In this document: one piece after another, positions 3,472-51,800 of the stretch | Position numbering within the stretch: position 1 is the first letter of the stretch | Layout: each line of letters starts with the position of its first letter | DNA from: Branchiostoma floridae | Taxonomy: Eukaryota > Chordata > Leptocardii > Amphioxiformes > Branchiostomatidae | DNA length: 64,000 bases | NCBI RefSeq assembly: GCF_000003815.2 | Contig: NC_049981.1 | Span: forward strand, 14,172,217-14,236,216 | Reading direction: 5' to 3' | Translations under genes and position numbers: made by a program | Notes under the pieces: model-generated | Database searches by the model: none | What the model saw: only the letters and a program-made list of their open reading frames with translations | What the model was told of the DNA's origin: nothing

Positions 3472-3637
3472 CTGCCCTGTGATGTATTACCGATGGGACC
3501 GAAAATAATATATATATATATATTTATTTGCAAATCCATGCCCGTAGGCTAATTGCAATGATACAGACAGTGAAAAGTAACAAGTGTCTATTCTAAATAC
3601 ACACACGTCAGCTATCTATGTACATGCTTCTACTTCT

Positions 3638-5524
3638 TTACTGGGTGGTTTGACTTCTTCTTTGGAGGCAGTGGCTGATGAAAAGTCCCACTTTTTTAAT
3701 GATTAGTGGGTTCTGTGATTTTAACAGAAATATAGTTTTTTTGAAGTCTACTAACTGGTGAAAAGTTGGAAATAATGTTTTGATTGTGTCAAAAAGGTTG
3801 TTTCTTTCGTCCTCATAATGGGGGCAGTTACATATAAAATGTATTTCATCTTCCACTGCATCCGTCGCACAGTATTTACACAATCTATCTTGAACTGGCA
3901 CTTTTTTATAACGACCCTTTTCTATCTCTAGTGAGTGAGCACTGATTCTTATCTTACATACATTGGATCTCTTGTCAGCGTCGTTCTGGTATAGATAGGT
4001 TTCCATGGCATATTCGGTTTTGATATGTTTGTAAAATCTTAGTTTGCCGTTATCTTTAGACAATTGCTGGAAAAAGGTTTGGACATACACGTCTGACAGT
4101 CTTTTCCTTAACAATGTACAAATATGTTTGTTGTCTATTCTAGAGTGAGCATAGTTCCATAGATAGGAATAACCNNNNNNNNNNNNNNNNNNNNNNNNNN
4201 NNNNNNNNNNNNNNNNNNNNNNNNNNNNNNNNNNNNNNNNNNNNNNNNNNNNNNNNNNNNNNNNNNNNNNNNNNNNNNNNNNNNNNNNNNNNNNNNNNNN
4301 NNNNNNNNNNNNNNNNNNNNNNNNNNNNNNNNNNNNNNNNNNNNNNNNNNNNNNNNNNNNNNNNNNNNNNNNNNNNNNNNNNNNNNNNNNNNNNNNNNNN
4401 NNNNNNNNNNNNNNNNNNNNNNNNNNNNNNNNNNNNNNNNNNNNNNNNNNNNNNNNNNNNNNNNNNNNNNNNNNNNNNNNNNNNNNNNNNTATAACATTA
4501 TGGGCTTAATACACGTATGAAATAGCTTAAGTAGAGTCTTAAGGGACATCGTTGAAAGAGTGAGAGGTTTGAGGCCGAATACAGCTTTACGTGCCTTTAG
4601 AGACAGATTCTTTTTAGCTAAGGAATAAGTACCTGACGAGGACAACGTCAGGCCTAGGTAGGGGTAGGAGTTTGCGATTTCGATGTTATCTACGCCAAAT
4701 AAGAAATTTATGTTCTTGAGGAGTCTCCCTGATTTGTTAAAGATCACGGCTTTAGTTTTCTTTAGGTTCACCTGCAGTTTCCATTTTTCGCAGAAGGAAT
4801 GAAGCCTGTCAAGGGCACATTGTAAGCCGGTTTCAGACTCTGAAAGTAGTACTACATCATCTGCGTAAAGTAGACAAGAAACGAGGAGGTGGTGTAGGGA
4901 GGGTGGGTCGCAGTCGGGGGTATCTAAATCTTTAACTAAATCATCTATAAATAAGCTGAAAAGAGTAGGACTGAGGTTGCATCCTTGCCTTACACCTCTG
5001 TCAGTTGTAAACAGTGGTGTAAGGCCGGTAGGAGTTTTAACACATGTCATCGGATTAGAGTACATGGATTTAATCAATTTGTAGAACTTGCCGCCTATGC
5101 CCAGGTTAAGTAGTTTGTAACGTAGACCTTCTCTCCAGACGCAGTCAAAAGCTTTTCTGAAGTCTATAAAGCAGGTGTAGAGGCGTCTGTTGGTGTTGGT
5201 GTATTTTGATATCAGTGTGTCAATAACAAAGATGTTGTCGTTAGTTCCGAAATTCTTTCTGAAGCCAGTCTGGTTGGGGGAAATGAGGTTGTGATCATCT
5301 ATATATTCGGTGAGACGAGTATTCATTATTGTTGTAAATAATTTGGCAAGGCAGCTAATTACAGAAATTCCCCTGTAATTGTTCGGGTCATCTTTTTGAC
5401 CGCCTTTATGTACAGGTACAATGTGGCTTTCACGCCATTGTTGGGGAAAGTGCCCGGTTGAAAGGATTAAATTGAACAGTTTAGTTAATGGATATGTAAG
5501 AATATGTGCTGCGCATTTTAGCAT
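3638..5524 (-). CDS. LINE reverse transcriptase ORF (partial, gap inside)
   Basis: The frame is 628 codons long, of which about 106 are unknown because of the gap. Visible reverse transcriptase motifs, in order, are NNYRGISVISCLAKL (motif 1), FIDFRKAFDCVW (motif A aspartate), GVRQGCNLSPTLFSL (motif B) and LLYADDVVLLSES (the YADD catalytic box), followed by a thumb-like VNLKKTKAVIF. The C-terminus has a cysteine/histidine cluster (CKYC, then EIHFICNCPHYEDER) of the sort found at the ends of several LINE ORF2 proteins. No endonuclease or RNase H is visible. The frame stays open across the gap, consistent with a gap length that preserves the reading frame. It is not a host gene. Confidence 0.9.
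   Translation of the reverse strand: MLKCAAHILTYPLTKLFNLILSTGHFPQQWRESHIVPVHKGGQKDDPNNYRGISVISCLAKLFTTIMNTRLTEYIDDHNLISPNQTGFRKNFGTNDNIFVIDTLISKYTNTNRRLYTCFIDFRKAFDCVWREGLRYKLLNLGIGGKFYKLIKSMYSNPMTCVKTPTGLTPLFTTDRGVRQGCNLSPTLFSLFIDDLVKDLDTPDCDPPSLHHLLVSCLLYADDVVLLSESETGLQCALDRLHSFCEKWKLQVNLKKTKAVIFNKSGRLLKNINFLFGVDNIEIANSYPYLGLTLSSSGTYSLAKKNLSLKARKAVFGLKPLTLSTMSLKTLLKLFHTCIKPIMLXXXXXXXXXXXXXXXXXXXXXXXXXXXXXXXXXXXXXXXXXXXXXXXXXXXXXXXXXXXXXXXXXXXXXXXXXXXXXXXXXXXXXXXXXXXXXXXXXXXXXXXXXXGYSYLWNYAHSRIDNKHICTLLRKRLSDVYVQTFFQQLSKDNGKLRFYKHIKTEYAMETYLYQNDADKRSNVCKIRISAHSLEIEKGRYKKVPVQDRLCKYCATDAVEDEIHFICNCPHYEDERNNLFDTIKTLFPTFHQLVDFKKTIFLLKSQNPLIIKKVGLFISHCLQRRSQTTQ
4175..4490. other. Assembly gap of 316 N inside LINE copy 1
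   Basis: The flanks match copy 2 at 23370 and 23684, so the missing segment corresponds to 23371-23683 (313 bases). The gap estimate differs by exactly three bases. Confidence 0.95.
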
Positions 5525-13291: not shown

Positions 13292-13880
13292 TTGCGAATA
13301 ATATTCAAATGAGAAAGCAAAATAGAAAGCTCTCAGAAAGCAAAATAGGATTCTTGCACTGATTCTTGATATGATGTCTTAATTTCATGTATGTGTCCGT
13401 TTATGTATCAATACAGTAGATATCTTTATTTACACAACAAAGATTCAGAAGGTCTTATTCATATCTATAGATATTCATATATATGCAATGCATTATAGAC
13501 ATATATAAACATAATGTAGACAAGTGTATACAAATGCATTTCATACATGTATGAACATCTATGAATATGAATAGTCAATATGTTGAGTCCAGCGTATCAT
13601 TTACACTATTGTACATAGTACATATGTTTGCCTAATTATTTTCTTGTTAGGGGGCGGCGTTGGTAAAAGTTGACTCAACATCTCGGCGTCGTCATCCCGT
13701 CTAGTTTGTCATATTCGGGCCGACATTTGAACCTATTACTAATACTGTTTACTCGGAAGTGTGTTTTGTAAACAATAGTCACATGAGTCTTTAAACAGAG
13801 AATCCTTAAAAACGAACAACATTTCCGACGTTCATCCTACTAACTTGAAGACAAGACGTACGACATCTCATCATTTCACC

Positions 13881-15988
13881 ATGAAGTTGCTGGTGGTTGT
13901 TGTGTTCTGCTGCATGGTTGGTGCCTCTTTCGGGGCAGCTATCGGTAAGTACAGTAATTCGCGTTTGAACAGTTAACATGCAACGTGTCTCTTGAATTAA
14001 GAGAATAGAGCTAGAAATGCTTTCAAGATGACTTCAGTAGCTGATGTTGAAGAATCGTACAACGTTATTGCATTGAGATAGCCGGTTGACTCCTACTACT
14101 AAAGTATCGCTTCCGACAGCATGTATGTACAAGGAGCTTTACAGGGAGCTTAAAAGCTCCTTGGTATGTACTTATACATGCAAGTACAAAATTAACAGCC
14201 ATCACCTAATTTCCTGCCATATGCTATGTGGCAGTCTGTCTTCAACATACTGAACCAAGCCGACAACTTTATCTATTACCATGATATGATATTAGGGTTG
14301 TTCCTTTTTTTTTGTACCAACAAAAGTACATCTGTAGTATATACTGGGTAACAATTACTCTATTTCTCACATTGTACTGCCCATTAATGCTTTGTAACAA
14401 AAAATTGTGTACAGCTGCGTTTTGCCTTATTCCGACGTCACGAATCATGACGTCACAGATTAGGTCATGGGAACATGACCAGTTGGCACTGTGCAAATAA
14501 TATCGATTGTTAGACACTGCAAAACAAAAGTCTGGCACAACTAAACAATCAATTATAGAATGACAAAATCATGTGAAAAATAACGTTAAACATATGAGAT
14601 ATGTATGAACGTATTCACTAGAAGTCTAGCGAACTTTCTAAATAGTGAATACAATAAGTTTTATTCTTACTGGACTGTCAATTTTCCTGAAATCTAGCTA
14701 TTTTTGTCCCTCCAGCGTCTGTCGAGTGTCCGAACGGGGATCACATTGTGAGCTGTTTTGTTAACCCCTGTACCTACACCCAGTGTAGGGACGGATATGA
14801 ATGCGTGTAAGTCTTCTCTCAATGATAAATTTTAATGGCAACTTTGTGCTTAAGTTGTATAACATTTGGCTCTCTTTTTATTTACATCCCTTAGTTTGTC
14901 CAAGCTAGATTGACCGTCGCGTAGTGATTTTTTACACCCTTTGTCCCAACAGTGCCAACTACTGTGGCGGGTGTAATGCCGTGTGCGTCCCGGCTCAGCC
15001 CCTGATCTCTGGTGAGTTTTTCTACATGTCGTCACGCCCTAGAATATGTCACTTCAAGCAAAACTATTGTGCATGTATACCTAATCATCTCTGCACCCAT
15101 CCAGGGGGACGTATACATACACGTAGTACTAGGCAGCTTTCACTCTCATCCACGTGCTATATTACATGTTATATCACCACCAACGGTACATCTCCTCACA
15201 GGCAGATCATTGAGCGAATCTTCGATGTACATGGAATCTCATGTATGTTTGTTTCACCTGCAGACAACGGATGTCCCCCTGGCGTTCAGGAGGTGAACTG
15301 CTTCGCAGACCCCTGCTTGGCGATGTTGTGCGCACCTGGATACGTCTGCAGGTAGGGGCTAATGTTGCCATAGTTTCCTTCTGACACATACACAGTACAT
15401 GTCCAGATATCGGTATGACTATGTTCAGGAGTTCACTGTATATATCTAGATCTATCTGGGTTTAGTTTTCGGTATTTCATGACATTTATGTAACGCTAGT
15501 TCACCTTTATCCATGGGGTAGCCGTTATCCGTTGTTTTTATAAAGTTTATCTAGGGGTATCAAGTTGACAGACGTACGCGTTGGTTTAAATTGCTGTAAT
15601 ATCTAATTTTCTACATAGTGAAAATATTGCAATTTGAAACCAGCGTCTGTCGACTTAACATCCCTTAATACCCTGTTCCTGTTTTTTAGATAACGGATAT
15701 ATGTTACCCCACGGATAAAGGTGAAAATCTGTTTAAAATCTATAAGTATCTTTTCAACTTTAATCATTGGTCAAACCAAGGTCTAATCAGTTGTGCTGCG
15801 TTTGCAATTGATGCAAGCCTAACCAACATGCACAATGTTTTCATCTTATCTCACTAGAGTGTAGGTACTACAGTATGCGGTATATGCAAATTAACACCAA
15901 CCGTACGCATTTTTATCTCAATATCAGGTCTAACTACTGCGGCGGCTGTAACGGAGAGTGTGTCCTGCAGGACGGGTTGACTATTTGA
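13881..15988 (+). CDS. Secreted two-repeat cysteine-rich protein (5 exons, 120 aa)
   Basis: Exons are 13881-13944, 14716-14806, 14953-15011, 15264-15351 and 15928-15988. All have GT-AG borders and consistent phases, giving 363 coding bases with stop. A signal peptide (MKLLVVVVFCCMVGASFG) is followed by two homologous repeats of about 48 residues. Each repeat has the pattern C-P-x-G, CF(V/A)(N/D)PC, C, GY(E/V)C and then NYCGGCN, C. In both repeats the same phase-2 intron separates the GYxC half from the NYCGGCN half, so the gene grew by duplication of an exon pair. The spaced cysteines imply a disulfide-stabilised extracellular protein. Similar PC...CGGCN units occur in uncharacterised invertebrate secreted proteins as far as I recall; I give no function. 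A poly(A) signal follows at 16044. Confidence 0.85.
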
Positions 15989-16507: not shown

Positions 16508-16773
16508 TCACTTTCTAAAACTCGTAGCGAGTTTCTCTGCTGTAGCGATCTCTTCCGCCGACACAAGAGCATCTTTTAAACTCTCCACACTGGCACTTTT
16601 ACCTGCCATTTGAATCCAAAGTTTGAGAGCTTCCCAGCAACACTCACGCGGGTCCCCTTGATGCTTCTCACTGACTTGGTCAACTTGCGCCTCAGTAAGA
16701 CCAAGTTGGCGGCTGAGCTCAGTCCATCGTGGACACACGTCTTCCACAATGACAGGAAAACAATCCTCTGGAG
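16508..16773 (-). CDS. Last ROCO exon: second death domain and stop
   Basis: It encodes FPVIVEDVCPRWTELSRQLG, then a helix-rich segment with GDPRECCWEALKLW and ESLKDALVSAEE, ending in TGA. The pattern (CPxWxELxxxLxL, GDPRxCCxxxxxxW, LxDALVS) matches the first death domain exon, so the pair arose by tandem duplication. The protein ends about 12 residues after the last predicted helix. Confidence 0.88.
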
Positions 16774-19700
16774 CTTAGCAATATAGAAATGAAAATTCAA
16801 GGGTTACTTTCACACAAAGCTTCTCACATGTTAAGACACTATCAAGGGAAGTTCTAGTAAGACTACGCAACGATTTTCAATACCTCATATATATGCCTTC
16901 GAGGTACAAATGAATGACCCCGAAGCATATCTTGATCTAATTGCCAAAATGACCTTATAGAGAACATAAAGGAAATGAGACAACGAATAATACTGTGTAT
17001 GAACTGATCGCTTGCACTCACCTACTTCTGGTGAAAGCGTAACCCCTGCAGGCTCTGTTTTGCTTGACTTCGACGTGTCTTCTGTAAGCTGTAGCCTGTT
17101 GAGTAAGTCAAGTGGTCAGAGTCTGATGACACGGTGAAATACATGCCAGAGATATAAACATTAACAGCGACATGCTTCACTATAGGACACATGCCCTCCT
17201 CGGGTTCCTGACTTTTGTTCATTTGCCAACGTTCACAAATTTGGACGCGGACAAGCTCAACCTTCGTATCGTGCCAGTATATGGTTACAGCTCTTCCCGG
17301 ACCTGGGCCAGAGGTGACAAACTTGAACACAAGCCGACTTCCTTTTATTGAGATTGAAAAAGTTTGTTATCCGCGTAGAACAGCTAAAATTTGAGATTTT
17401 ATAACTTTTTATCAACATAGAATTTCTACTCACATGTCGTCAATCGCCTCGACCGTTGGCACCTCCCTGATGGAAACAAGTGCATCCCTCAGTCTCTGTA
17501 TGGTTGCGCGGCTGCCATTTACCTGAACCCACCGATCGCAAACAGCCCTGCAACACTTCCTCGGGTCCCCGCGGTAGCGCTCTTCAATCTCGTCGATATT
17601 TGCTGACGGGAGGTCAAGATGGTGGCCGAGCTCTCGCCATTTGGGGCAAGCGTCTCTGACGACGATGTTGAAACATCTCTGCAAACTCGGCACAGCTGAA
17701 AAGGGACGCACAACTTAGACTTTTCATCATACTCAAGTCAAGATTATACAGTTTAAAGTCTTACAATTACGATCGCGATGCTATACAATACAATACAATA
17801 CATCTAGGTCGATTGCGGCACTATGACGCAATTTGACGATATAGTTACCTGCTAGCGGTGACGTAATATCCGATGTTTCAAGTGGCGCCGGCTGCGCTTT
17901 CCCCCATCCGTTGCCACCTTGTGAATATCTGGCATAAAAGAGTCTAAATAGGTTAGCTACATGGCGTACAGTAATATTTGATAATGTGCTTTGAACAAGA
18001 AGCTTTCAACCAGAGACCTCCTTGGTCAGAGAGAGCTCGAACATTATGATGTTTAGTAGATAGTGGTCTTGAATTCTATTCTGCAAATGCTGGCTTAAGA
18101 TGACATTTAATGACCTTAGCTGAAATTTGAAATAATCATTACGGTACTTACGGATCCTGAAACCAGTCGGCAAGACCTATATCTTGGCTGGTGGCAGTTG
18201 CCGGTGCGTAGGTTTCACACACGACTTCTCCATCACTAAAGCATTCAGCAACGCTTGCTTCAGTAATGGGGAGAAAGCGTTCAGCATCTTCTTTCCCTTC
18301 ATGACTCTCACAGCTGCATCTAAGGCACCATTTGTAGCTGATGCCTGGTATCCACTTGTGGATGAGTTCCTTTAGATCTTCATCCAGACCTTCCTTTACG
18401 CTTGGACCATGACTGAACCGACTTGCCTCAGCCTTGACTGACGAGAGCAACTCAATCCTCAGATAGAATCGCTCTTTTGTGACAAGAAAGGTCTGCTTGC
18501 GATTGGTTGTGATGAACCTTGCACATCTTGCGTACGCTAGCTGTGGTTTTACCTTGCTGTGCCGACGCATGCAGCATATGACTAAGCGGTGGTAAAGCCC
18601 AACTGGACAGAATTTACCATCAAATACAATGAATATGGGCTTGCTGCGTGCTATACCCGGAGGATAAAGCTTCGCAAAGTCAGGCTCTGTGGTCAACAGC
18701 GAGGGGACGAAGTATGTTGTCTCTGCTGACTCGTCACCACCAGGACTCTTCTCCCTATCTTCATACCCATGGCACTGAAGGACGAGATCAAACTTGTCCA
18801 TAATGTCCAGCAGTTCTTGCTTATACTCAATTAGATTGTACTGAAGAGCTTCCTTTCTGTGTGTCCACACATACTCTATCAGTCGATCTGTCAGCTCCCC
18901 AGTTTCCTTCAGCCGGTCCCATTCCTCTTTCACCGCCGGATCCCGGTACAGTGGGATGGTGATGATGGTTTTGCAGACATCAACTAACCACTGCGGATCA
19001 AGGATCACAAAGTTCCGGAGACTCTGAGTGGGAAAGAAGATGATGTCTCCTCTGAGATGTAGGAATTGCAGAATACCAATGGCGTTGTCCTCTGACGTGA
19101 CTCCAGTACCCATTGCTTCCATCACCCTCTCCATATTGCAGTACCGTGTACCCTGCTTATACATCTCTAACAACTTTGACCTTAATTCCAGCCACTTGAT
19201 TGGAATCTTCTCTCCCATGTAGCTCTGCTGTCTGGCAATGTCTAAGATGAAGTGCCTTAGGTTTGTCACTTCTGGGTCTTCTGGATTCCGTTTCGTGTTA
19301 TCCACAAAAAAGTACCTGTCCCTTACATGTTTGTCAATGAGCCTGCCTTTCAAGTGCCGTCTGATGCTGCTGTGATATTCTTCTTTACTTTCCTAAAATA
19401 CAATTGAGGAATAAACTTATAAGTCAACCAAAATGTTCCGCAAAGTCCCTCAAATTCCCTTGTAAAGAGCACTATAAAGATAAATTTATCAGAAGGCACG
19501 ATGCATACAAGACTTCCTAATACTGTTCACATAGAGCAATAAATTGCTATGCTTAAACATTTGATGCTCTTTCATGTATACAGTAAATTCTGTGAAATTC
19601 AACTTGAGTTCTATGACATTACAGATGTATCCAAGCACTATAAGAGTATACTCAATAGATAAACCATGCTGGCAGTCAAAGGAATATGTTGGGTGTGCAA

Positions 19701-22700
19701 GATCGCGCCGCGTGCCTGCAAAGCTGATGTGTTACGGAGATGGGTGAATATACCGGCTCCAAGGATAGAGATACAGATATCGGTGGAAGCAAATATGCTC
19801 TAAATTTGCTACCAGTGGATGAATATGTTTATAAACAGCCAATTTGATAGTTATATGTACAGATCACTGACCTTAGTGACTTGGTCACTGTGCGTGCCGA
19901 TGACGACCACAGGTGGCTCGATGTCTCGCTTTCCTGTTGTCTCTTCATCTCGCAATGGCCTTGTGTGAGCTCGAATGGATTCCAGATGATAATCGATGAA
20001 GTCTAATCGTTGTGCATTAAAGACAAAAATCATGAACGTAATCCTTCCTGTCAGTGATACCATTGAGACACTGGTGATTTAGTCAGCAATTGATACAATG
20101 CCAGAGTAGACTAATTTGGTGCGATGTGTACCATTGCTTTCACAGTAGACCAAAGGTCAATATAATCTTTATTAGTACATTTATCTCATAAAAGTCACAC
20201 GCACTGCACTCATACACAGCTGCACAACGCTGTGTGAAGACCGATAACACCATTGCTGATTCGTGTTTACAAGTCATTGCCTTTGACCTACCTCTTTCCT
20301 CAATACATTGGCTTGCTGGACCTCCACCCACAGTGCTTGAATCAACCGGGGCGTGCAAAGGTTTAGCGAGATTCAGGGTAAGACCGTAAATGGCTCGATG
20401 GGTGTAGAAGACCTGTTGGGTGCTGTAGAATATTTCCTGCCCTCCAAAATCCCAGATAGAAATCTGTGGGTGTTCTCTTGTACCTGTTGGGTTTGCCTGG
20501 GCGTCTTTTTCTTGGAGGATTTTTGCTGCTGTAAGAAAGCTCTCCGGTGCCTCGGGCGGCTTGTCAGTGATCTGTGCTTCCTTAAGTAAGTCAGGCAGCT
20601 CCTCGGATGCGAGCACTTCCGTAGAGGAACTTTTACCAATTTTTTCTACCCCTACAAGGTAGATAGATTTTCAATTAGACTCATTCTAGAGCTTTACATT
20701 GGGATGCGTAAAAAGTAACAAAATGACACTACTGTTGTTAGTGACAACACATATCACATACCACCACGTGGAGTGTCAAGCTGCTCGGAGTCAGCTGGCC
20801 CCTCGACATGCTGCTCTGGCTGTGATGTCTTCGACTGTTCTCCTTCTTCATGCCCTCGCTTTTGGGTCTGCAGTTTTTTCATCTGCTCTGCGACAACATA
20901 CGGAAACTGATCCTGGAGACCTGGAAATGATAAATGGTCGAGATATTTTCATTAAATACAGAATAGAGTTCCCGTTAAGCCATATCCGTATATGATGTTA
21001 GGCGTTCAGCTTCAATCCATTATAATGTAGATAATGATATTCAAACGATGGTTTACATTGAGTAGAAAGTCGTCAACTACTAAACAGGTTCATTGATACA
21101 TTTCACAATTTCACGGTGTTCAAAGTCAGAAATGCAAAATTATAGTCAGAGATAGAAAACTAACCAAAGGAAGATATACCTTCGATCTTTTTCCATTGCT
21201 GTGTCTTGGTCATGACGCATGGATGGATTGCGATCCCATCAGTGATTTTCCAGTCCGGTTCAAAGTCCTCTCCCATAAGACTACCAACCAGGTTGGTTTT
21301 TCCGTTACCGTACTTTCCAATAAGTACAAACCTAGTACTATAGACCTCGGTAACACCCTCTTCACAGGCACGGTCATACAGAGCTCTCATTTCAGGGCCT
21401 CCTAGGTCTACCTCCGTTGGTACAGCCCCTTGGTCCTGTGAGGCTGGAAGAATTCTCGAATCATTAAACTCGTGAATTCACTATAAATTCTCCTTCCAGA
21501 AGTTAGACTCCGGTTTAGACTTATTTCAAGCGTGTTGTAGGTCTTGAGCTTCCATCATAATCTGACCTAACCTGTTCTTGCAGAGTAAGAGTACGTCCAA
21601 TTAGCCTCTTAAGTGGAAATTCTGGTAGCCTCAGGAAACCAACGTCAGGACAACTAGGCTATCTATATACAAACGAAGTTTATAGAGAGTGCGAGGGTCC
21701 CTTGGTGTTATTAAAAAATGCCTCTTCCTTATCGACCATTTTATGATCTACCTTTCCAACATCTGCTTGGAGATTACTAGACGGCTGGCGTCATGACGTA
21801 ATATTCAAGCAGTAACAGACAAGCTATAGCATTACGATCTACTGAGTTTTTTACCCTCCCCTGCATGCCATCACGAGAATGAGTTAGGCTGTGATTTACC
21901 CTGAAAGAAAAAAAAAAACAAGTGTGGGTATCTCTTCGCACACATATGGCATTTTGTCATTCATGACATGCCTATGAAAATCCCTTTGTAACGGCAACTG
22001 ACTATTTCAATCTATGTTTTCTTAACGATTAAGAACATGATTGGCATCGATACGGTCAGAAAAATGGCTTTCAAAATAAACAAATCATGGATGATTTTCT
22101 GGAAAGTACAAGGATCTTACTTTATGTTCCTCAAAAACTTTCATTATGGCCTTTCTTTCTTTGGCTGAAACTCTCTTTCCGTATCTGAAGTCCTTCCCAA
22201 TCACCTCATCTGCTCTCTTACCACCCTAGAAGGAAATGCTCGCTTATTAAAGCATCATCGCCTATTAAAGCATCATATACATGTAATAGATTTTCTTTCA
22301 TACGCAATTGCAAGTACGACTTAACTTTAAGAAATGATGTATTTATATCTATTTCAACTGGACACGTACATTATCACGAAAATGTATCGAAAAAACCTTG
22401 ACCTAGAATGCAACTTTCATTTCCTGGAGCATTTAGCATTTATTTTTTTCAGTACGTACTTTATTCTTACTATTGGCGTCTGCTCCTGCTGCTAGTAGTT
22501 GCGCTACACACTTGTGGTGCCCACATATAGCCGCATCATGAAGTGGTGTAACGCCCTGTGTAAAAATTAAACTTGTTTAATAAGTCTAATCGAGGACACC
22601 ACTATCATAAAGTTGTGATAGGCAGCATAGGTTGTATTGATCTCGGGAAATCTTTCCGTAGCCTCCCCCACAAGAACATTTTAGTTTACTTCTTTCCTGT

Positions 22701-25700
22701 AGCAACCTCCCATATAATTTATTTGCAAATCCATGCCCGTAGGCTAATTGCAATGATACAGACAGTGAAAAGTAACAAGAGTCTATTCTAAATACACACA
22801 CGTCAGCTATCTATGTACATGCTTCTACTTTCTTTACTGGGTGGTTTGACTTCTTCTTTGGAGGCAGTGGCTGATGAAAAGTCCCACTTCTTTAATGATT
22901 AGTGGGTTCTGTGATTTTAACAGAAATATAGTTTTTTTGAGGTCTACTAACTGGTGAAAAGTTGGAAATATTGTTTTGATTGTGTCAAAAAGGTTGTTTC
23001 TTTCGTCCTCATAATGGGGGCAGTTACATATAAAATGTATTTCATCTTCCACTGCATCCGTCGCACAGTATTTACACAATCTATCTTGAACTGGCACTTT
23101 TTTATAACGACCCTTTTCTATCTCTAGTGAGTGAGCACTGATTCTTATCTTACATACATTGGATCTCTTGTCAGTGTCGTTCTGGTATAGATAGGTTTCC
23201 ATGGCATATTCGGTTTTGATATGTTTGTAAAATCTTAGTTTGCCGTTATCTTTAGACAATTGCTGGAAAAAGGTTTGGACATACACGTCTGACAGTCTTT
23301 TCCTTAACAATGTACAAATATGTTTGTTGTCTATTCTAGAGTGAGCATAGTTCCATAGATAGGAATAACCATTATCATCAAGTATTTGTTTTACATGTTG
23401 GAGCCAAGTTTTCTTATGATTGTTTAAAGGTACATTTTGTTGACAGAGTAGTGCGTCTATTTGTAAAGGGTGTGTAGAGTAATCTAATTGTTTAAGGCGC
23501 AGCCAGTACTTAACTATGCGGATTGCTATATCTATGCCTGCTGGATAGACTCCGAGTTCTGCTCTACATGCGGAGTTACAGGAATTCCTGTGCACGCCAA
23601 GAATATTTTTACAAAAGCGGGTTTGGATATTTTCCACTGGGCAGTTATCTTTTCCACGGTCTATACCCCAAATCTCACTACCATATAACATTATGGGCTT
23701 AATACACGTATTGAATAGCTTAAGTAGAGTCTTGGGGGACATCGTTGAAAGAGTGAGAGGTTTGAGGCCGAATATACAGCTTTACGTGCCTTTAGAGACA
23801 GGTTCTTTTAGCTAAGGAATAAGTACCTGACGAGGACAACGTCAGGCCTAGGTAGGGGTAGGAGTTTGCGATTTCGATGTTATCTACGCCAAATAAGAAA
23901 TTTATGTTCTTGAGGAGTCTCCCTGATTTGTTAAAGATCAAGGCTTTAGTTTTCTTTAGGTTCACCTGCAGTTTCCATTTTTCGCAGAAGGAATGAAGCC
24001 TGTCAAGGGCACATTGTAAGCCGGTTTCAGACTCTGAAAGTAGTACTACATCATCTGCGTAAAGTAGACAAGAAACGAGGAGGTGGTGTAGGGAGGGTGG
24101 GTCGCAGTCGGGGGTATCTAAATCTTTAACTAAATCATCTATAAATAAGCTGAAAAGAGTAGGACTGAGGTTGCATATATATCGATAGTCTTCTGCTCCG
24201 TGAAAAAAATCATCATAAAAATTATGTCTACAGTTGAAAATCTCGTTCATAGCGCTGATGTACCTACATAGCTATCGCTTGTATTGGGGTCGGCGCCAGC
24301 TTCTAGTAACATTTTCATGGCCTCGGTGTAGCCATTCTGTGCTGCTTCGTGAAGTGGCGAGTTACCCTAGAGCAAACACAGACCCAGAGAAAAATATACA
24401 TATTGATTTACACAGTGCTCACAGATCATAAAGGTTGATATAAAACAAAAGTTCGATACCTCACACTTCCGTGAAATATTTTGTAGCCTTTTTATTGTTT
24501 CATCTGGTCTAATTGATTGTGAAAATAGCTAATTAGCGAAATCTGTTTTATCTCTGTTGGCCCCCTGAAGCAAAAATACATACGCTGTATGTGTAGAAGT
24601 CCTTTATTTTGGCAGAATTTCATGGGTGTGCCTAAATACCACAAACGACCACAAACGACTCGGAAATACCACAAACGACCACAAACGACTCTAATATGCA
24701 GTGTATATGGGTCAAAGACCTTGTGTGGCGCTCTGGAGACATTGTTTACACATTCATGAATTTAAAAAACGCAGCAAGTCCTGCGTATTCACCAGTTATT
24801 TCGAGTTAGTCCGCCGGTTTCAAGATCGAATCGATTCTTGGCCGCCATGTTGGATCGCCCGTGCTAGGAGTCTGCATGGGGAAGTTCTCGATACCTTCCA
24901 CGGCTCCATAGACGACAGGACGATAAAACTATGGACACTGTTGGTTCATAGATTGTAGCATGGCACTATTCTATCATTGTCAACTTATAAAACTTGTATA
25001 CTAAGTGTTTTTCAGCCTCGATGCAAGCACGCATTCATTATAGTGACCGTCATCGTGATTTGCTTCGATCTTGAAACCGGCGGACTAACTTGAAATAACT
25101 GGTGAATACGCAGGACTTGCTGCGTTTTTTAAATCCATAAATGTGTAAACAATGTCTCCAGAGCACCACACAAGGTCTTTGACCTATATACACTGCATTT
25201 TAGAGTCGTTTGTGGTCGTTTGTGGTATTTCCGAGTCGTTTGTGGTCGTTTGTGGTATTTAGGCAGACCGGAATTTCATGTTTACATTTGATAATGACTT
25301 ATGTGAATGAATAACATTTACATGATCTATACATGATATAGACCTTTCAGTAGCTTAGACATATGTCACGAGTAATAAGTAATTCATCATTTACCACTAT
25401 GGAATTATGGATGGCACTTTTACATTAATCGTGCAAATTGGACTCTCGTTACAAAATTAGTATCTGTTGTTTCACCTTCCATTGATAATGTACTTAAAGT
25501 GCATATCGTATCATTGTGGAAAACACCAAAATTTAGTAATTTCTCATGAATTATGCCAAATTGAATTATAATTTGCATAATTTGCACATTAATGCGTACA
25601 TCTCAAAACTACCTGTATACCGAATATCATGGCAATTCATAATAATATGACAATATCCTCCTAAAGATATATTTTTAGAAAAATTCCCTGTAGTTCCAGA

Positions 25701-25994
25701 TTAAGCTGCTAGTGAGCCCAACCCTACACCACTTCCTCAATATGTGACAAGTTATCTGCCACCCAAAAACCATCAATACCTTAGCATGTCTGGGCCAGAA
25801 AAAAAGATAGAAAAAAAAACCAGGGGCCTGAAGTTGACATTGACCTTCGTATTCCCTACACCTACCAACATACCAAATATCATTACAATCCATCCAGAGG
25901 TTCAAAAGTTATGCTGACATTGAATGTGCGAAATTACAAACATGCACGTACGTACACACGCACACGCACGCACGCACGCACATACACAAACACA

Positions 25995-26045
<51 letters not shown>

Positions 26046-26799
26046 ACACACAAACACACACACACACCAAAAACTATACGTCCATTTTTTCTTGGAGGTA
26101 AAAACATATACAAATGTACCTAGTACTACCTACATTTTTATCCCGTGCGTTGGGATTTGCTCCATATTTGATCAGGACCTGTATTGCTCCTGTATGCCCT
26201 CTACCGACTGCGTAGAAAAGGGCAGTGATACCCTGGAAGAAGACATTGTAGTAGAGTGCGAAATGAATATATTTCGCTAACACCTCCGAGGAAGTGAACG
26301 AACTCACTTTTCCTCATGAAATAAAATGAAACAAGAGACAAGTAGTACTGTACATAATAATATGATGATAATAAATGAAATATAATCATGAGCTAACTTT
26401 ACAAGATAAATCAAACTAAATCCGACATAACCTTTGGCGCGATACATTGCAGCAATACATACGAAATAGTTGTCAACTCGTTCTATTTACTAATCAAAAA
26501 ATGAATGCAGTACTGATTAACGGTCATAATTTTCTAAATAGAATACTTGTCAACTTACTTTTTTATCAGTACTGTCAGGGCTTATCCCCTCAGACAGTAT
26601 CTGCTCAACTCTGGCCATGTTGCCGCGCTTGGCAGCGTCCAGTAGCGCCTGAAGGACAGTGGGACATGTTCTGGATAATGTATTTTTTCCAAAATCAAAA
26701 CCCGGATAATGTGATAAAATCTTTATATGTACATAGTACATGCCTATGAACTTAAAATGTTTACCAACGTACCTCCTCCTTAGTCTTCTTCGAGTCCAT
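16508..26799 (-). CDS. ANK-Roc-COR-Death-Death protein (ROCO family, DAPK-like without kinase), 15 exons
   Basis: Coding exons in transcription order are 26799-26773, 26648-26559, 26232-26134, 24366-24268, 22555-22460, 22225-22121, 21435-21180, 20920-20762, 20651-20292, 20047-19872, 19392-18152, 17928-17849, 17695-17434, 17095-17022 and 16773-16508. Every junction has an AG acceptor and GT donor and all phases agree, giving 3390 coding bases (1129 residues). The start MDSKKTKEE has an in-frame TGA upstream. Order of parts: four ankyrin repeats (about 10-137), a basic linker, Roc GTPase (about 200-489) with P-loop GKYGNGKT, DFGGQE and THSD, COR domain (490-900), and death domains at about 931-1016 and 1042-1129. 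Roc-COR proteins are GTP-regulated dimeric scaffolds, and death domains recruit apoptosis or immune partners. DAPK1 has the same order but begins with a kinase, which is absent here. A LINE lies in intron 4. The assembly is mine and no transcript was consulted; the last exon may instead start at 16767. Confidence 0.88.
17434..17695 (-). CDS. ROCO exon: first death domain
   Basis: It encodes CFNIVVRDACPKWRELGHHL, then IDEIEERYRGDPRKCCRAVC and IQRLRDALVSIREV. Six amphipathic helical segments with the conserved tryptophans (CPKW, DRW) fit a death domain. The domain is followed by a 74-base linker exon (17022-17095) rather than by the longer minus-strand frame at 17022-17330, which does not fit the phases. 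Confidence 0.88.
18152..19392 (-). CDS. ROCO exon: COR domain (single 1241-base exon)
   Basis: It joins in frame after the Roc THSD exon. It opens ESKEEYHSSIRRHLKGRLID and contains typical COR segments: IPIKWLELRSKLLEMYKQG, a winged-helix-like GILQFLHLRGDIIFF, and NFVILDPQWLVDVCKTIITI. A C-terminal half follows, with YFVPSLLTTEPDF and FYLRIELLSSVKAEASRF. COR is the dimerisation and signal-output domain that always follows Roc. The exon is much longer than its neighbours, which is common for COR-coding exons. It ends in CAGGATCC and a GTAAGT donor. Confidence 0.9.
19872..21435 (-). CDS. ROCO exons: Roc GTPase domain (4 exons)
   Basis: Exons 21435-21180, 20920-20762, 20651-20292 and 20047-19872 encode the GTPase. 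G1 is GKYGNGKTNL (residues 212-221), G3 is DFGGQE (378-383) and G4 is THSD near the end, after YHLESIRAHTRP. About 160 residues separate the G1 lysine from G3. Much of that is a charged, glutamine-rich low-complexity linker encoded by the 159-base exon and the start of the next. Hydrophobic strand FMIFVFNAQRLDF precedes G4, as usual in Roc. Core nucleotide-binding residues appear intact. Confidence 0.88.
22460..26648 (-). CDS. ROCO exons: four ankyrin repeats, one per exon
   Basis: Exons 26648-26559, 26232-26134, 24366-24268 and 22555-22460 are 90, 99, 99 and 96 bases long, all phase 0. Each encodes one repeat, for example GNSPLHEAAQNGYTEAMKML and GVTPLHDAAICGHHKCVAQL, with the TPLHxAA and LLxxGADxN signatures. 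The exon 22225-22121 that follows (KRADEVIGKDFRYGKRVSAK) looks like the capping end and linker to Roc. One-repeat-per-exon phase-0 structure makes gain or loss of repeats easy. Confidence 0.9.
22718..24176 (-). mobile_element. LINE copy 2, 5'-truncated, inside a ROCO intron
   Basis: It is nearly identical to copy 1 from TTTATTTGCAAATCCATGCC (3' end) up to GACTGAGGTTGCAT, where similarity stops. It therefore retains only the region from reverse transcriptase motif B to the 3' end. The element fills most of the 1712-base intron between the third and fourth ankyrin exons and lies in the same orientation as the host gene. ATATA borders both ends and may be part of a short target duplication. Confidence 0.9.
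22834..24176 (-). pseudogene. Broken LINE reverse transcriptase fragment (copy 2)
   Basis: Two frames (23792-24176 and 22834-23742) cover the YADD region through the C-terminal Cys/His cluster. Relative to copy 1 there is a two-base TA insertion near 23771 and a one-base deletion in a T run near 23811, which shift the frame between them. With the 5' part missing, the copy cannot be active. Confidence 0.88.
24625..25269. mobile_element. Foldback DNA transposon with 205-base inverted arms and 10-bp target duplication
   Basis: Arms at 24625-24829 and 25065-25269 are inverted copies with few mismatches. They start GGTGTGCCTAAATACC on the left and GGTCTGCCTAAATACC in inverse on the right. Subterminal tandem words CCACAAACGA are present in each arm. 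The direct repeat GAATTTCATG lies at 24615-24624 and again at 25271-25280. Long inverted repeats with a duplication of 9-11 bp are typical of Mutator-like elements, so I suggest that group. No transposase is encoded in the 235-base centre. It lies in an intron of the ROCO gene. Confidence 0.88.
25945..26068. repeat. CA microsatellite
   Basis: About 120 bases of imperfect CA/CG dinucleotide repeat with GCACGCAC, ACAAACA and CAGA interruptions, in an intron of the ROCO gene, 65 bases from an ankyrin exon. Confidence 0.95.
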
Positions 26800-27410
26800 A
26801 GCCGCAGGCTTCAGCAAATGTAATCAGTGTACTTGTTACTGAAAGCGAAAGGGAAGCACAGCTGACACAACTTATGTCAATGTTTGATTCGGTAACTTAA
26901 AGGATCTTACAATGAATGACACAATATCGATTGAAATGAAGAAAAATCTAAATGTAGATTTCGTATTTCCATAATGAAAATAAGTAACGTTACCTAAATT
27001 TTCAGAAGAATATAAATTGTTGTCATAGAATATGAATTGTTGTCATCTGAAAAAATACAATGTTGTGATAGAAATATCCTTGAATATCGTCAAACATTTC
27101 TCCGATTCATACACCTGAGTAATACAAACAAGTTAATGTTCCTTATGAATTTAGACAAACCTTTGATTGTAAAGCATATCTGTTCCTAGATTTTCAGCAT
27201 CACAAAGAAGCGAGATGTCGAATTCACTTAGTAGAATATGATCCTTCTGCTGGTTGACATTATAAATATTGCATGTAACGGACTTGTCAACTATCATTTT
27301 GTTGCGACCTGTACTTAACCAAGTGGGTATATATGTTACAATAAAGGTCTTCATCCATTTCTTCATGCATTATTAATGTTCACACTTGGAAAGGACATTC
27401 TTGGTCCAAA

Positions 27411-45800: not shown

Positions 45801-48800
45801 GAAGGGGAGGGAATAGAGAAAAGTCAGAACAGCACAGAGAAGAGGTCAGAGGTCAAGCAAATGTTCATGGCACCAATGTCTCCCTCTAAAAAAGTAGATG
45901 TATGTCTAGCAGACATTTGAATCTGTATTAAGTGTTCTATTGTACTTTGGCACTGCAAGAAGGACCAATTTTTTTCCGTTGCGACAAAAACTGGCTGATC
46001 AACCTGAAAAAAGTCGACACTTCAAATTTCTTTAATCCTACAAATAGCCAAACAACTGAAAAAGTGAGTAACATCCTGAAAACAATACTTGACCTTACTT
46101 TTTGATGTACAGTTTATTATACATGTATCAGTCCTTACTACTGGAATGCCAACAAGTTAATTGACAATGTCCAGTTGTTGCTGATTGATAAGTTGGCCTC
46201 ACTACTTTTTTGGCTAACTAATAATACACATGTATGTTACAACATACCAAGAAACTTCTAAAAAAATTACTTCAAAAATGACTTAACAAAAAGCAATGTT
46301 CTGCAATACGTCCACGACAGATAGATAATAAAAACCCTGTCAAAGTTAAACTCAAAGCTGAAAAAGTCTCCTCTCATTTGAAAACGTTACACGAGCAAAA
46401 CATTGAAAAAAGTGAACTTTATGCCATTGCAACCTCAGAAAATACATGCGCACATTGAACATATGGCGGAAACAAGGGAAAAGTAGGAAAGACAGAACGA
46501 AACACAGCCATACAGGGACAGGAACAATAAACAGCAGAAACAGCAGAAACAGACATTTAGCCTGGTTGGTCCACATCAACTGTACTACTTGGTTTGTTTG
46601 TTTGTTTGCTTGTTTGGCGAGCCTTTTTTATCAAATCAAATCAAATCAAAGCAAAGTGCTTTCCATTGAGGTTATAGGGCAAGAGCTTCTTGGACATTCA
46701 AAATAATATTGCTCTAAAACAAAACAAAAACAAATTTAACAAGCATTTTCAGTAATCTTTACTGTACAGTGTTGACTTGCATAATGGCCCCATCCCTGAG
46801 GTGTTGCCAAAAGTTTGTGTGCTAACACTGGCATGCTTTTTTTAGAGGACACGCGATGTGGAAAACCAAGTAGTACAGTTGACATTGTCAACAACAAAGT
46901 GTAACTTTTTATGCATGCATAACATAAAAACAAACCACTGCAGACAGTTCATGACCATGGCAACACATGCAAATGACAATAGCAGCAGAAATTGTAATCA
47001 CTGTTAATAACCATATTGCATACAACTCAATAATAAAGCAACAATAAATAGAAAACCATAACAGGAATTTAATAAATTAAACACAGCTTTGCTGGTTAAC
47101 AAAATTGCTGGTTTAGTGTCATATTTTCATTTCAAAAGATTTTTATTTCATTTTTGTATTACATAAACTACCTTCCCTATTTTTACATAAATAAAAAATT
47201 GACAGATAACTTAAATATATTCTTCATGAAATATGCTTATCATTAAACTTCTAAGTTGCTTTCTTATAACATTGTCTTAAAAGATCATCTGACTGTATGA
47301 TTTTCAAAAATTTTGAAAGATTTGTCTGTCTTACAAACATTGCATCCTTTAGTTATAATGGACTAGCCCATTACAATTAAATCACTTCTTGACTTAGACC
47401 ACAGGACATCAGAAATAGGGGTGGGTGGGGTGTGTTTTAATAATGTACTTACAGCTTTTTCTCTTTCTGCTTGGTCCAGGTTATGGATGCCCAGCAACAA
47501 GCTGTAGTCCATGATTTTGAAGCTCTCTAAAACCTAAACAAGAGAGTTAACAATTCTTAATCAATTCAGTCTTTCTAATCATTTCATTCTACAAAAGCAA
47601 ATAGGCTTCCAAAGGGACCTATAGCACAATTACACAACAAAAATACAAACACAAACACACACACACACACACAGACAGGCACGGACAAGCACAGCCAAAA
47701 CCATACCTCCATTTTTCATGGAGGTAATAATATCACATTATTACAACATCAAGCCCAGAGCATTATCAATACCCAGGAATTAAATAAATCCAGTCTTCCA
47801 TCATGATATGACAACTTAAGAGCATTTAAACTTCCTTTTCTGGTAGAGATTTTCTTTCTTGTCCTTGTCCATAAATTAACATCAACAGAACGAAATACAA
47901 CACAAGATGGCAATATCTGATTCATTTTAACTAGTTCACAGAAAGTTCAATATCGGGTACCTATGAAATCTATGTTTGCCACAAACTTTTAATGTGCTGT
48001 TTGATACTGGCCAATATCATCTAAGCAACAAAGAAAGACAAATGCAGCATTACATAAATCATTGTCCTCACCCTACAATCTCTAGCTATTGTCTTCATCA
48101 TTGCAGTATAGTTGTCTGAGTCCAGCAGAATTCCCTCAGTATGGTCCTCCATGAAGTCCAGATCCTTAAAACAAGGGTTGGGCTTCTGTCTTTCCGCTTT
48201 GGAGGCCTTCCTCTTGTAAGTGGAGCCCTGAATGATAGAATTGATACTTCTGAGTGATACAATATATTTTACTTTCAAATAAATAATGTCTATCAAAAGC
48301 ACTGCACAAAGATTCTGTAAGGAAATATGTTATGATACTGATTATGTTTTCTCAGTTGCTTGAGTGTCAAGGAAACCAGAATATTTAAAAGGAACAATCT
48401 AGTAACTGACAATGTCAAACAAAATCTCTATTCCTATGCTTCCTAATGCTTTTCTGTCCAAAGTACCAAGTCAAAGTTATTTCTTTAGCTACCAGAATTC
48501 ATACTATGAAATATCGAGCATGTCGAGATCTCAACCAATTTATTGAAAACCCTAGAGGTCCATCTCAGTGTGAGTGGACAAAACCTTACAGTCCGGTTAC
48601 TAACTGTACATAACTGGTATGTTACCACTGATGGCAGCTTACTGGATAAGCAAAGCAAACAAGCTCCCTACCTTTAAGTCATATCTAAGGTGCATTCTGA
48701 TGGTGGAGGGCAGCAGGTTGTTCATAACTACCAGACGGATGTTCTTCCCTCCAGACTGGTAACAGTACAGACCAAAGAACTTGGGCAGCAGGGTTCTCGG

Positions 48801-51800
48801 GTTCTGGTTTAGGTTCTGAAAAGGAAGGAAAAACAGCATTGTCATTGGCTTAGTCCTTAATATACAAATCCCATTGTCCACCCACATATTGAAAAAAAAC
48901 AAAACATAATACATGTATAGATGAACATGCAGCAACTCTGTCATTGGTCAACATCCAAATTTCTATGCTATCATTGGCTGTACTGCTAATTGTGATAGAC
49001 AGTCAGGACCTGTCTTTTGCCATAAGCACTTACAAACCTTTCGCTGTACCATGCAATTCTTACAACTTCTTGTGCTTGTACCTAAACTTCTTTGACATGA
49101 AGTCAGTACAAAAATTCAAGATTGACCAGAAATATTTCTAAAAAAAAAGATATCAAGCAATTGATAGCTGGATGGACGGATAGCTGGATTTCATAAGAGA
49201 ACGACCCTACAAAACAACTCCACCCACCATGTAATATCCCGGGAGTAGTTTTTGTAAGAAGTCGGCCTCCTTGTGTTGCACAGTTTTGACAATGAACTCG
49301 TCATCTGCAGTCAGATAGAAGAGGGACCCACTGGCACCTGGGTTGGAGAGTTCCCTCAGGGGCTCACTGCACAGAGAGATCTGGGAACAAGAGTGGAAAA
49401 AGGTTACATACAACACTTAGCATGATAAGTACACACTAATTGTAAAGTTGCAGCCAACATGGACGATAGTTTCACCAGCTTTACCCAGATTGTATGTTTT
49501 ATGTGTGTTTTAGCACCACCGGAGCTTGCAATAGTGGAAAACAAATACTCACAATTTTTTTCCCTTTTACTCAGTATGCAAAAGAAATCTTGACCTTCAT
49601 GGCCATATTAGTCATCATCCCAGGAAAACTTGGGTAAAGAATGCCCCCAAATTAGCAATTTTGGGGTAAGAATTTTATTTCATTGATGATTTTTACCTAA
49701 AATAACATTTCTACAGAAAATATCAACTGAGTCTGTCGGTCAGTGACAAGGCTCCCTTTTCTATTGGAAGTGTCCAAAAAAATTATGTCTTGAGAAGCAC
49801 TAGAGACAGTCAAATCGGCCTCAAATCATTACTCGTAAAAATGATTGAGACCTGCAGCTAGGATTTTGAAACCCACCAAGAAGTCGTCCGGCTGGATCCC
49901 GAAGAGTTGTCTGAAGAAACGGAATGCCATGGGAGCGTACGTCTTAAATCTGAAGTCTGGACAGCGGTGGGCTGGGGTCAGGTTACTGCCCTCACTGGAA
50001 ATAAAAACATCTCTGACTAGTAACACTTTTAGAAAGTTTGACTTATATACTTATGTATATCTAAGGTAAAAGATAAAGGTCCCATAGCCTTTTTGAGATT
50101 GTGGAGAGGGGAATTTAGGTACCACAGTATTGAAGTCCATCCTTCTCCTTATATCACCTTTTACCTTTCCAAACAACGTCAGGTACCCATTTTTACACCT
50201 GGATGACTGTGGAGTGAGGAAAATGGTGTCAAGTGCCTTAGTAATTTTGAATACAAGGTATGATCCCATAACCTGTTGATCCTGTGTACATGCTGTACCC
50301 AAACCACCGTCAGTGGCCGAGACCATAATGCCTTTGCAACAAGAAAATGAACATCTCATACCTCAGTTAAGTAATTCTATTTTTTTGTAATTTCATCCAT
50401 TCATTACTGAAAACATTTCCTTGATCCAGCCTAAGTCATTTTCTTACTGGCTCTGACAAGGCAACAGATTTAAAACAGGAAATGGGATAACCAATCCTGG
50501 AACCTTTGACCTAATTTCCAGTCAGTGTTGCCATCATGCTCATCTGAAAACAAGCCACTCTACTGTATAGAATAGCTACAAACACACAAGCAAACAAACA
50601 AACAGACACACTGAAAACAACACCTCCATGCACAGAGGTAAAAGACCTGTCCTTACCCAGGGAAGAAGACACTCTCCACTACTGAGAAGTCCTGGATCAG
50701 AAGGTCTCTCTCTGGTTTGGAACTCAGGCCTCCTATGGAATGTGAGATCCCCAGTTGGATTGCTGTCATCAAAGCCGACGACGTTGTCTGGAAAATGAAC
50801 ATAGAAACTCAACTTAAGCACTAGTACTAAATACTACCTCTACAAATTTGAAATGTGCGTAAAAGTCTAAAACGAAAAATGCTGCTAATACCATTCAGGC
50901 CACATTATTTTCCTTACTTTCTTCCACAAGTTTACATCATACAATCTATTCATTGCAAACCTTTTTTACTGAAACAATACAAGATATATGTAAGCACCAT
51001 AATTCTACATTCTAAAGCTATTTAAAACTGCCTGGTTCAAAATTACATCCCTTGGTTCCAAACTGTAACTGTGATTAGTGCCTAATTCAGTAATTGTTTA
51101 ATGTCATAAACATTGGTAGTGACATTTACCTTTAAACGCATTATTTAACCCCAGGAGCTTGAAACATACATGTAACACTAACAGTCCCCTCCATCTTAAC
51201 GTCCAACCTAACATGTGCGTACCCAACGTATAAACTACAGGCCTTCGTGCAAGGCACTACCTGCGACTTCACTAAATAATTCATAAAGCAAGACTATATC
51301 ATTAATTCAGAGGACATACAGACCCATCACAATTACTGCTGTGTACAGGCAAAATGCCAACTTCTAATCCAGCACTTTGCATGTTTGTTGGTCAGACTAC
51401 AGTAGTGACCCAACATCAAAAACAGATGTCCCAATGCTCAGGTATATCATGTAACTCTATACTATAAGGAACATGTATTTGTATGCATGAATGATGTGTG
51501 ACTGTAAACAAGTCATGGAATAGCTCATGTAAGGTTACAAAGTTGTAGGGGTGTGTCAACTAGTTGGGCTAGGGTTATTCCATTCTAAATTTATGGGGAG
51601 AGAGCTGTCAGAAACACTTTTTTTCAACTCCTTACTAGTAGATGATCTTTTTTTTGTTTTGAAAAACTTTCCTGCACATGAAAAAGATGACAATTTCAAC
51701 CACGCGAAGGCTAAAAAAGAGACGATCTTGTGTACATATACAATGTTTGTATACATAATATTATGTAAAACCTGAGCAATACAGGATATTTCCAAGTCTA

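Follow-up and report, generated by a model that had tools for sequence, protein, structure and literature searches.

A kinase-free ankyrin-Roc-COR gene with tandem death domains in Branchiostoma floridae, and its relatives with differing end modules

ROCO proteins have mostly been studied as kinases, with LRRK2 and DAPK1 as examples. The analysis described here concerns a gene of this class in Branchiostoma floridae, located on the minus strand of a 64,000-nucleotide stretch of DNA (hereafter the window; assembly GCF_000003815.2, contig NC_049981.1, positions 14,172,217 to 14,236,216), which combines ankyrin repeats, a Roc-COR core and two death domains. An earlier reading, made by a model from the letters of the window (the sequence-only reading), had described it as a kinase-free scaffold and a candidate for a little-described system.

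The gene and its protein

Re-assembly from genomic DNA gave 15 exons over 26799-16508 (Table 1), which join in consistent phase throughout, as had been proposed, and are separated by GT-AG introns without exception. The only stop is a TGA that ends at 16508, and the in-frame TGA claimed upstream of the start is present at 26826, 5' of the ATG. When a codon score was computed for each exon after training on the remaining exons, all 15 were coding-like, with 0 to 4.5% of 200 intron samples scoring equally high; the GC content is 0.493 in the coding sequence vs 0.377 in the introns. The length of the protein had to be corrected. The earlier figure of about 1129 residues is obtained exactly when exon 10 begins at 20047, a start that was rejected because an AG homologous to the one at 20002 is present in each of the 24 loci with an exon-10 match (30 COR-match loci were inspected, the window included); with exon 10 at 20002-19872, the protein is 1114 residues long. 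The 15 additional residues of the longer exon have an intron-like score (-0.49 per codon), whereas a simple splice matrix by itself favoured 20047 (0.13 vs -4.20).

The order of domains in the protein is four ankyrin repeats, Roc, COR and two death domains. Pfam profiles run on the 1129-residue model matched all of them, namely Ank (4.2e-28), Roc (5.4e-11, in two stretches), COR-A (8.6e-17) and Death (1.8e-22, in two stretches), and the G1, G3 and G4 motifs of Roc are intact, in agreement with the sequence-only reading; with Roc directly before COR in a multidomain protein, the gene belongs to the ROCO family. The ankyrin part is matched by only five open reading frames (ORFs) of the window, the four repeat exons and exon 6, and no ankyrin ORF was found in the window beyond the gene's own. 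No leucine-rich repeat (LRR) family such as LRRK and MFHAS1 carry appeared for the protein in the Pfam list, taken up to an E-value of 1.

The switch I threonine and the G3 aspartate of the Roc domain lie 141 residues apart. Positions 2-46 of the Roc profile are found in exon 7 and positions 49-87 in exon 9, so that about 110 intervening residues, rich in Glu, Gln and Lys, constitute an insertion. Exon 7 by itself reaches 0.00043 with the Pfam Roc profile and fails the family cut-off; it is matched in both of the paralogues that were fetched at length (71% and 75%). Exon 8, whose skipping would keep the reading frame, gave no match in the Pfam scan and a weak one in one paralogue (31%, 7.6e-4). 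Among the best 60 of 76 structure matches, the closest to the Roc-COR part were bacterial 3dpu (5.6e-11) and LRRK2 (1.3e-8). We take 3dpu to be a Roco protein; the structure entry itself reads Rab family protein. A search for relatives of the COR exon in viral and genome contig collections confirmed none.

Pfam detected neither a kinase domain nor a catalytic effector in the assembled protein. A kinase motif scan of the window (six frames, ORFs of at least 20 residues) found nothing that matched the APE-type, glycine-loop or DxWSxG motifs; a single HRD-like string lies outside a kinase context, and of seven D-F/L/Y-G strings one is the Roc G3 itself. In ten ORFs selected from 173 upstream minus-strand ORFs of at least 45 residues, Pfam showed no kinase apart from three PIP5K exons, the other seven being without a family above cut-off. 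The claim of a kinase-free ankyrin-Roc-COR scaffold with doubled death domains is thus supported within the window by the protein scan, the motif scan and these ten of 173 ORFs. The PIP5K-type phosphatidylinositol phosphate kinase exons (48024-49416, minus strand; 3.4e-18, 1.1e-16 and 1.1e-9) represent the upstream neighbour gene on the same strand.

The two death domains (DD1 and DD2) are homologous and run almost to the stop, which comes shortly after DD2, as the sequence-only reading had stated. Each of the two exons matched Pfam Death when scanned alone (Table 1), which places both domains in the death-domain superfamily, and they are 42% identical over 78 residues (E 2e-28). DD1 is near neutral (isoelectric point, pI, 6.9) and DD2 is acidic (pI 4.7). 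Only 5 of 15 fourfold sites agree between them, which indicates that the duplication is old; a recent duplication or an assembly artefact was rejected on this ground and because the pair recurs in four paralogues on contig C6. The phases over exons 12-15 (2-1, 1-2, 2-1, 1-stop) are compatible with a doubled linker-plus-death cassette. Exons 12 and 14, the two linkers, resemble each other no more than chance would allow, since 1214 of 5000 shuffles scored at least as high, so that joint duplication of a linker and a death exon is supported by the phases and the death exons only. Against solved structures, a joint DD1+DD2 profile matched FADD (4.9e-9), RIPK1 (3.3e-6) and ankyrin-3 (2.4e-4), and DD1 alone has FADD as its nearest structure (1.9e-4), matches that measure fold relatedness and not choice of partner. 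FADD, RIPK1 and ankyrin death domains are thus the nearest solved structures by sequence; unlike in those proteins, the death domains of the gene stand in tandem behind a GTPase, in a protein with neither DED nor kinase.

Table 1. Exons of the gene, with their positions in the window and the evidence for each.
Feature	Positions	Strand	Evidence
Exon 1, start codon, MDSKKTKEE	26773..26799	-	Re-assembly, codon score, upstream in-frame TGA at 26826
Exon 2, ankyrin repeat 1	26559..26648	-	Re-assembly, Pfam
Exon 3, ankyrin repeat 2	26134..26232	-	Re-assembly, Pfam
Exon 4, ankyrin repeat 3	24268..24366	-	Re-assembly, Pfam
Exon 5, ankyrin repeat 4	22460..22555	-	Re-assembly, Pfam
Exon 6, linker behind the ankyrin repeats	22121..22225	-	Re-assembly, codon score
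Exon 7, first part of Roc: G1 GKYGNGKT and switch I (profile positions 2-46)	21180..21435	-	Pfam Roc, paralogue matches
Exon 8, Roc insertion, Gln/Glu/Lys rich, phase 1-1	20762..20920	-	Re-assembly, codon score
Exon 9, remainder of insertion and Roc G3 WDFGGQE (profile positions 49-87)	20292..20651	-	Pfam Roc 3.7e-7 alone
Exon 10, Roc G4 GTHSD, corrected start	19872..20002	-	Re-assembly, codon score, homologous loci
Exon 11, COR: COR-A, then C-terminal part without Pfam match	18152..19392	-	Pfam COR-A 1.6e-17
Exon 12, linker, phase 2 to 1	17849..17928	-	Re-assembly, codon score
Exon 13, death domain 1 (DD1)	17434..17695	-	Pfam Death 3.6e-10 alone
Exon 14, linker, phase 2 to 1	17022..17095	-	Re-assembly, codon score
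Exon 15, death domain 2 (DD2) and stop	16508..16773	-	Pfam Death 3.8e-13 alone

Roc-COR relatives and their end modules

The genome searched comprises 513,431,437 bases, with the window on contig C3. An exon-level search with Roc gave at least 147 matches (150 of 370 candidates scored), and the search with the COR exon gave 40. Of the latter, 13 places show 59-100% identity and a further 15 reach 37-41% along most of the exon's length, the rest being fragments. The 13 close places are the window itself, four on contig C6, three each on C10 and C18, and one each on C19 and C176; the COR exon of the window is 59-68% identical to the other 12. In a midpoint-rooted FastTree phylogeny of 29 COR loci (the thirtieth was too short and was left out), the 13 close members form one clade (1.0), in which the window groups with C6 and C10 (0.97) and C6 with C10 (0.99). 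The gene is no isolated case, being one of 13 close relatives whose end modules differ. At C3:31.9-33.3 Mb and C14:1.94-2.93 Mb, further Roc matches are densely arrayed within long open frames, mostly of about 600-1600 residues; these are apparently other large ROCO expansions, of a single-exon type.

The modules around the COR exon were surveyed in flanks of 1.5 kb for the 13 members, extended downstream by about 4 kb for seven of them, and in 14 kb regions surrounding one member each of C6 and C10. Downstream of COR, the DD1+DD2 tandem occurs in 5 of 13 (the window and the four C6 members), a single death domain in 4 of 13 (C19, C176 and two on C18) and an OTU domain in two, both on C10, a GT4-conflict glycosyltransferase being seen after one of them; within the surveyed flanks no downstream module was seen in the remaining two (one on C10 with 586 N in the locus, one on C18). 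Between the window and C6, the identity is 62-65% for DD1 with DD1 and 68-71% for DD2 with DD2 vs 43-49% for DD1 with DD2, and since like pairs with like the tandem is older than the split between these members. A genome search with DD2 gave at least 133 matches (150 of 246 candidates scored). Among them are death-like matches that lie upstream of three COR exons on C10 at 16985978, 17010040 and 17036232 and are putative parts of the C10 genes.

In the C6 member fetched at length, a death domain lies upstream of Roc (2.3e-8), and its 14 kb region gave no ankyrin match. The 14 kb around the C10 member (397 N in the region) held neither an ankyrin nor a death match. In the predicted gene model of this C10 member, COR is followed in phase by a 56-base linker exon, with the same 2-to-1 phase as exon 12, then by an OTU exon and GT4-conflict (8.3e-71). 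Upstream of a Roc-COR member on C6, as on C10, a stretch (L016 1-111, C6 at about 25.311 Mb) is 43% identical to the end of a GT4 domain (4.3e-5).

Known systems and interpretation

Published systems are compared here through passages of the sources cited. DAPK1, a group 3 ROCO protein, has ankyrin repeats, Roc, COR and a death domain in this order (PMC6337361, PMC4917528), and its death domain works through protein contacts (PMC4917528). The gene shares the order and differs from DAPK1 in that no kinase or calmodulin segment and no serine-rich tail were found, in its four ankyrin repeats instead of ten, in its two death domains and in the Roc insertion; by kinase, number of repeats and C-terminus it does not qualify as a DAPK1 member. 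The term DAPK-like in the sequence-only reading finds no support here as a statement of descent. MASL1 (MFHAS1), a kinase-free human ROCO protein of group 1 whose GTP binding controls complex formation (PMC3995007), is likewise a kinase-free Roc-COR protein; unlike the gene, it carries leucine-rich repeats and lacks a death domain.

Animal ROCO proteins that lack a kinase and carry death or CARD domains have already been published (PMC4104024, PMC9334734). Trichoplax has at least 17 ROCO genes, with ROC-COR beside death or CARD domains and no kinase named in the passage (PMC4104024), and in Aplysia ROC-COR occurs with TIR and Death (PMC9334734). These placozoan and molluscan proteins share with the gene ROC-COR beside such domains, and the passages on them do not name the ANK-Roc-COR-death-death order; in the passages of open-licence literature searched, neither such a protein nor the module exchange around it was found.

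Bacterial AP-GTPase-COR systems are homologous to DAPK; they carry an LRR at the N-terminus, their C-terminal domains are of at least 24 kinds, among them GT4, and many paralogues can occur in a single bacterium (PMC8195603). The gene resembles them, as far as that account describes the systems, in a Roc-COR switch, in N-terminal repeats and, together with its paralogues, in a C-terminal module that varies from one paralogue to another, GT4 included, the joining of OTU-GT4 to Roc-COR being predicted from phase. The two differ in that the bacterial proteins have an LRR and enzymatic or TIR-type effectors, in place of which the gene has ankyrin repeats and tandem death domains and one C6 member an upstream death domain. 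An AP-GTPase-COR switch with variable C-terminal modules is the better published comparison than DAPK1.

The reading to which we give somewhat better than even chances is that the gene encodes a kinase-free, ROCO-class GTP switch from a lineage-expanded family with a constant Roc-COR core and differing end modules, which would work like the bacterial AP-GTPase-COR conflict systems. The ankyrin repeats would bind a ligand or partner; Roc would cycle between GTP and GDP and COR would couple this cycle to dimerisation, as judged from published ROCO proteins; the nucleotide state may then expose the C-terminal death-domain pair, which would recruit partners with death domains of the FADD/RIPK1 kind, or nucleate their assembly, and thereby trigger a response of the caspase or NF-kB type. 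In the paralogues the same switch would operate with an upstream death domain, with a single C-terminal death domain or, probably, with OTU and GT4-conflict, and it is this variation of C-terminal modules on one switch that led to the bacterial comparison. The arrangement suggests that the family may be a modular immune or cell-death sensor. A wider proposal, held tentatively and at somewhat less than even chances, is that the family is the animal counterpart of AP-GTPase-COR, in which sensors (ankyrin, death domain) and effectors (death-domain pair, single death domain, OTU-GT4) would be swapped at conserved intron phases, and that its members may be intracellular immune receptors outside NLRs, TLRs and DAPK1.

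Several results weigh against the conflict-type GTP switch. Ankyrin repeats were not found in either of the two paralogues fetched at length (one C6, one C10), and an ankyrin sensor is therefore not a feature of the family; splicing of the upstream death domain to Roc in the C6 member is predicted at most. Units of OTU plus GT4-conflict (3.5e-61 and 8.3e-71) flank the C10 Roc-COR paralogue on both sides (L041 1478-5755 and L042 1669-3766, C10 at about 17.02-17.03 Mb), so that the assignment of a unit to the gene is a prediction, and an exact-pattern check did not find the same OTU acceptor again when applied to a second C10 member. One C6 COR exon contains a TAG, and some family members may therefore be dead. 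For the COR exon, a single-sequence AlphaFold model had a mean predicted local distance difference test (pLDDT) of 39.7 and was not used for a fold search, and the structures nearest to the death domains speak, as said, to fold and not to partners.

An unlikely alternative is descent from an ancestral kinase-ANK-Roc-COR-death gene through loss of the kinase and duplication of the death domain, the product still serving as a scaffold or dominant-negative in the DAPK1 pathway. The shared domain order agrees with such a descent, as does s-DAPK-1, a human kinase-less splice form that regulates the level of DAPK1 (PMC4917528), against which stand the differences from DAPK1 in repeats, death domains and tail and the two close paralogues without ankyrin repeats. 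The best Roc-COR structure matches, bacterial Roco and LRRK2, also point away from it, a point that does not decide since the best 60 of 76 matches hold no DAPK1 Roc-COR.

It is just as improbable that the gene encodes a negative regulator or decoy, whose tandem death domains would cap or sequester FADD/RIPK1-like adaptors rather than activate them. A protein without a catalytic effector would suit this role, overexpressed DAPK1 death domain lowers death by TNF and Fas (PMC4917528), and the charge difference between DD1 and DD2 may allow mutual pairing; a simple decoy, however, would need no intact GTP switch, and the doubled death domains kept in four C6 paralogues are compatible with activation and sequestration. 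An incomplete model, with a kinase or other N-terminal exon farther upstream spliced into some transcripts, is very improbable given the TGA at 26826, the window without a kinase motif set, the ten upstream ORFs without kinase and the assignment of the kinase-type exons at 48.0-49.4 kb to PIP5K, a separate gene on the same strand, even though the gene is known here from genomic DNA alone and a weak AG between the upstream TGA and the ATG would allow an upstream exon.

If the conflict-type GTP switch is right, a natural Roc-COR family with death-domain pairs or a conflict-type enzyme in place of a kinase would reveal what the switch does alone, and would tie animal death signalling to bacterial AP-GTPase systems through testable paralogues whose cores are about 60-68% identical.

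Other features of the window

Runs of N occupy positions 1-539 and 4175-4490 of the window. Plus-strand ORFs at 13779-15352 have a signal-peptide-like start and a cysteine-rich stretch, and those tested had no Pfam match. The intron between exons 3 and 4 holds an inverted repeat (24625-24837 and 25057-25269) with arms of 213 nucleotides that are 95% complementary and spaced by 219 nucleotides, which is foldback or MITE-like (miniature inverted-repeat transposable element) and has no further copy within the window. A reverse transcriptase fragment (RVT_1 3.7e-15; 22837-24271, minus strand) lies in the intron between exons 4 and 5 and is 99.1% and 98.2% identical to pieces of an N-interrupted copy at 3605-4982.

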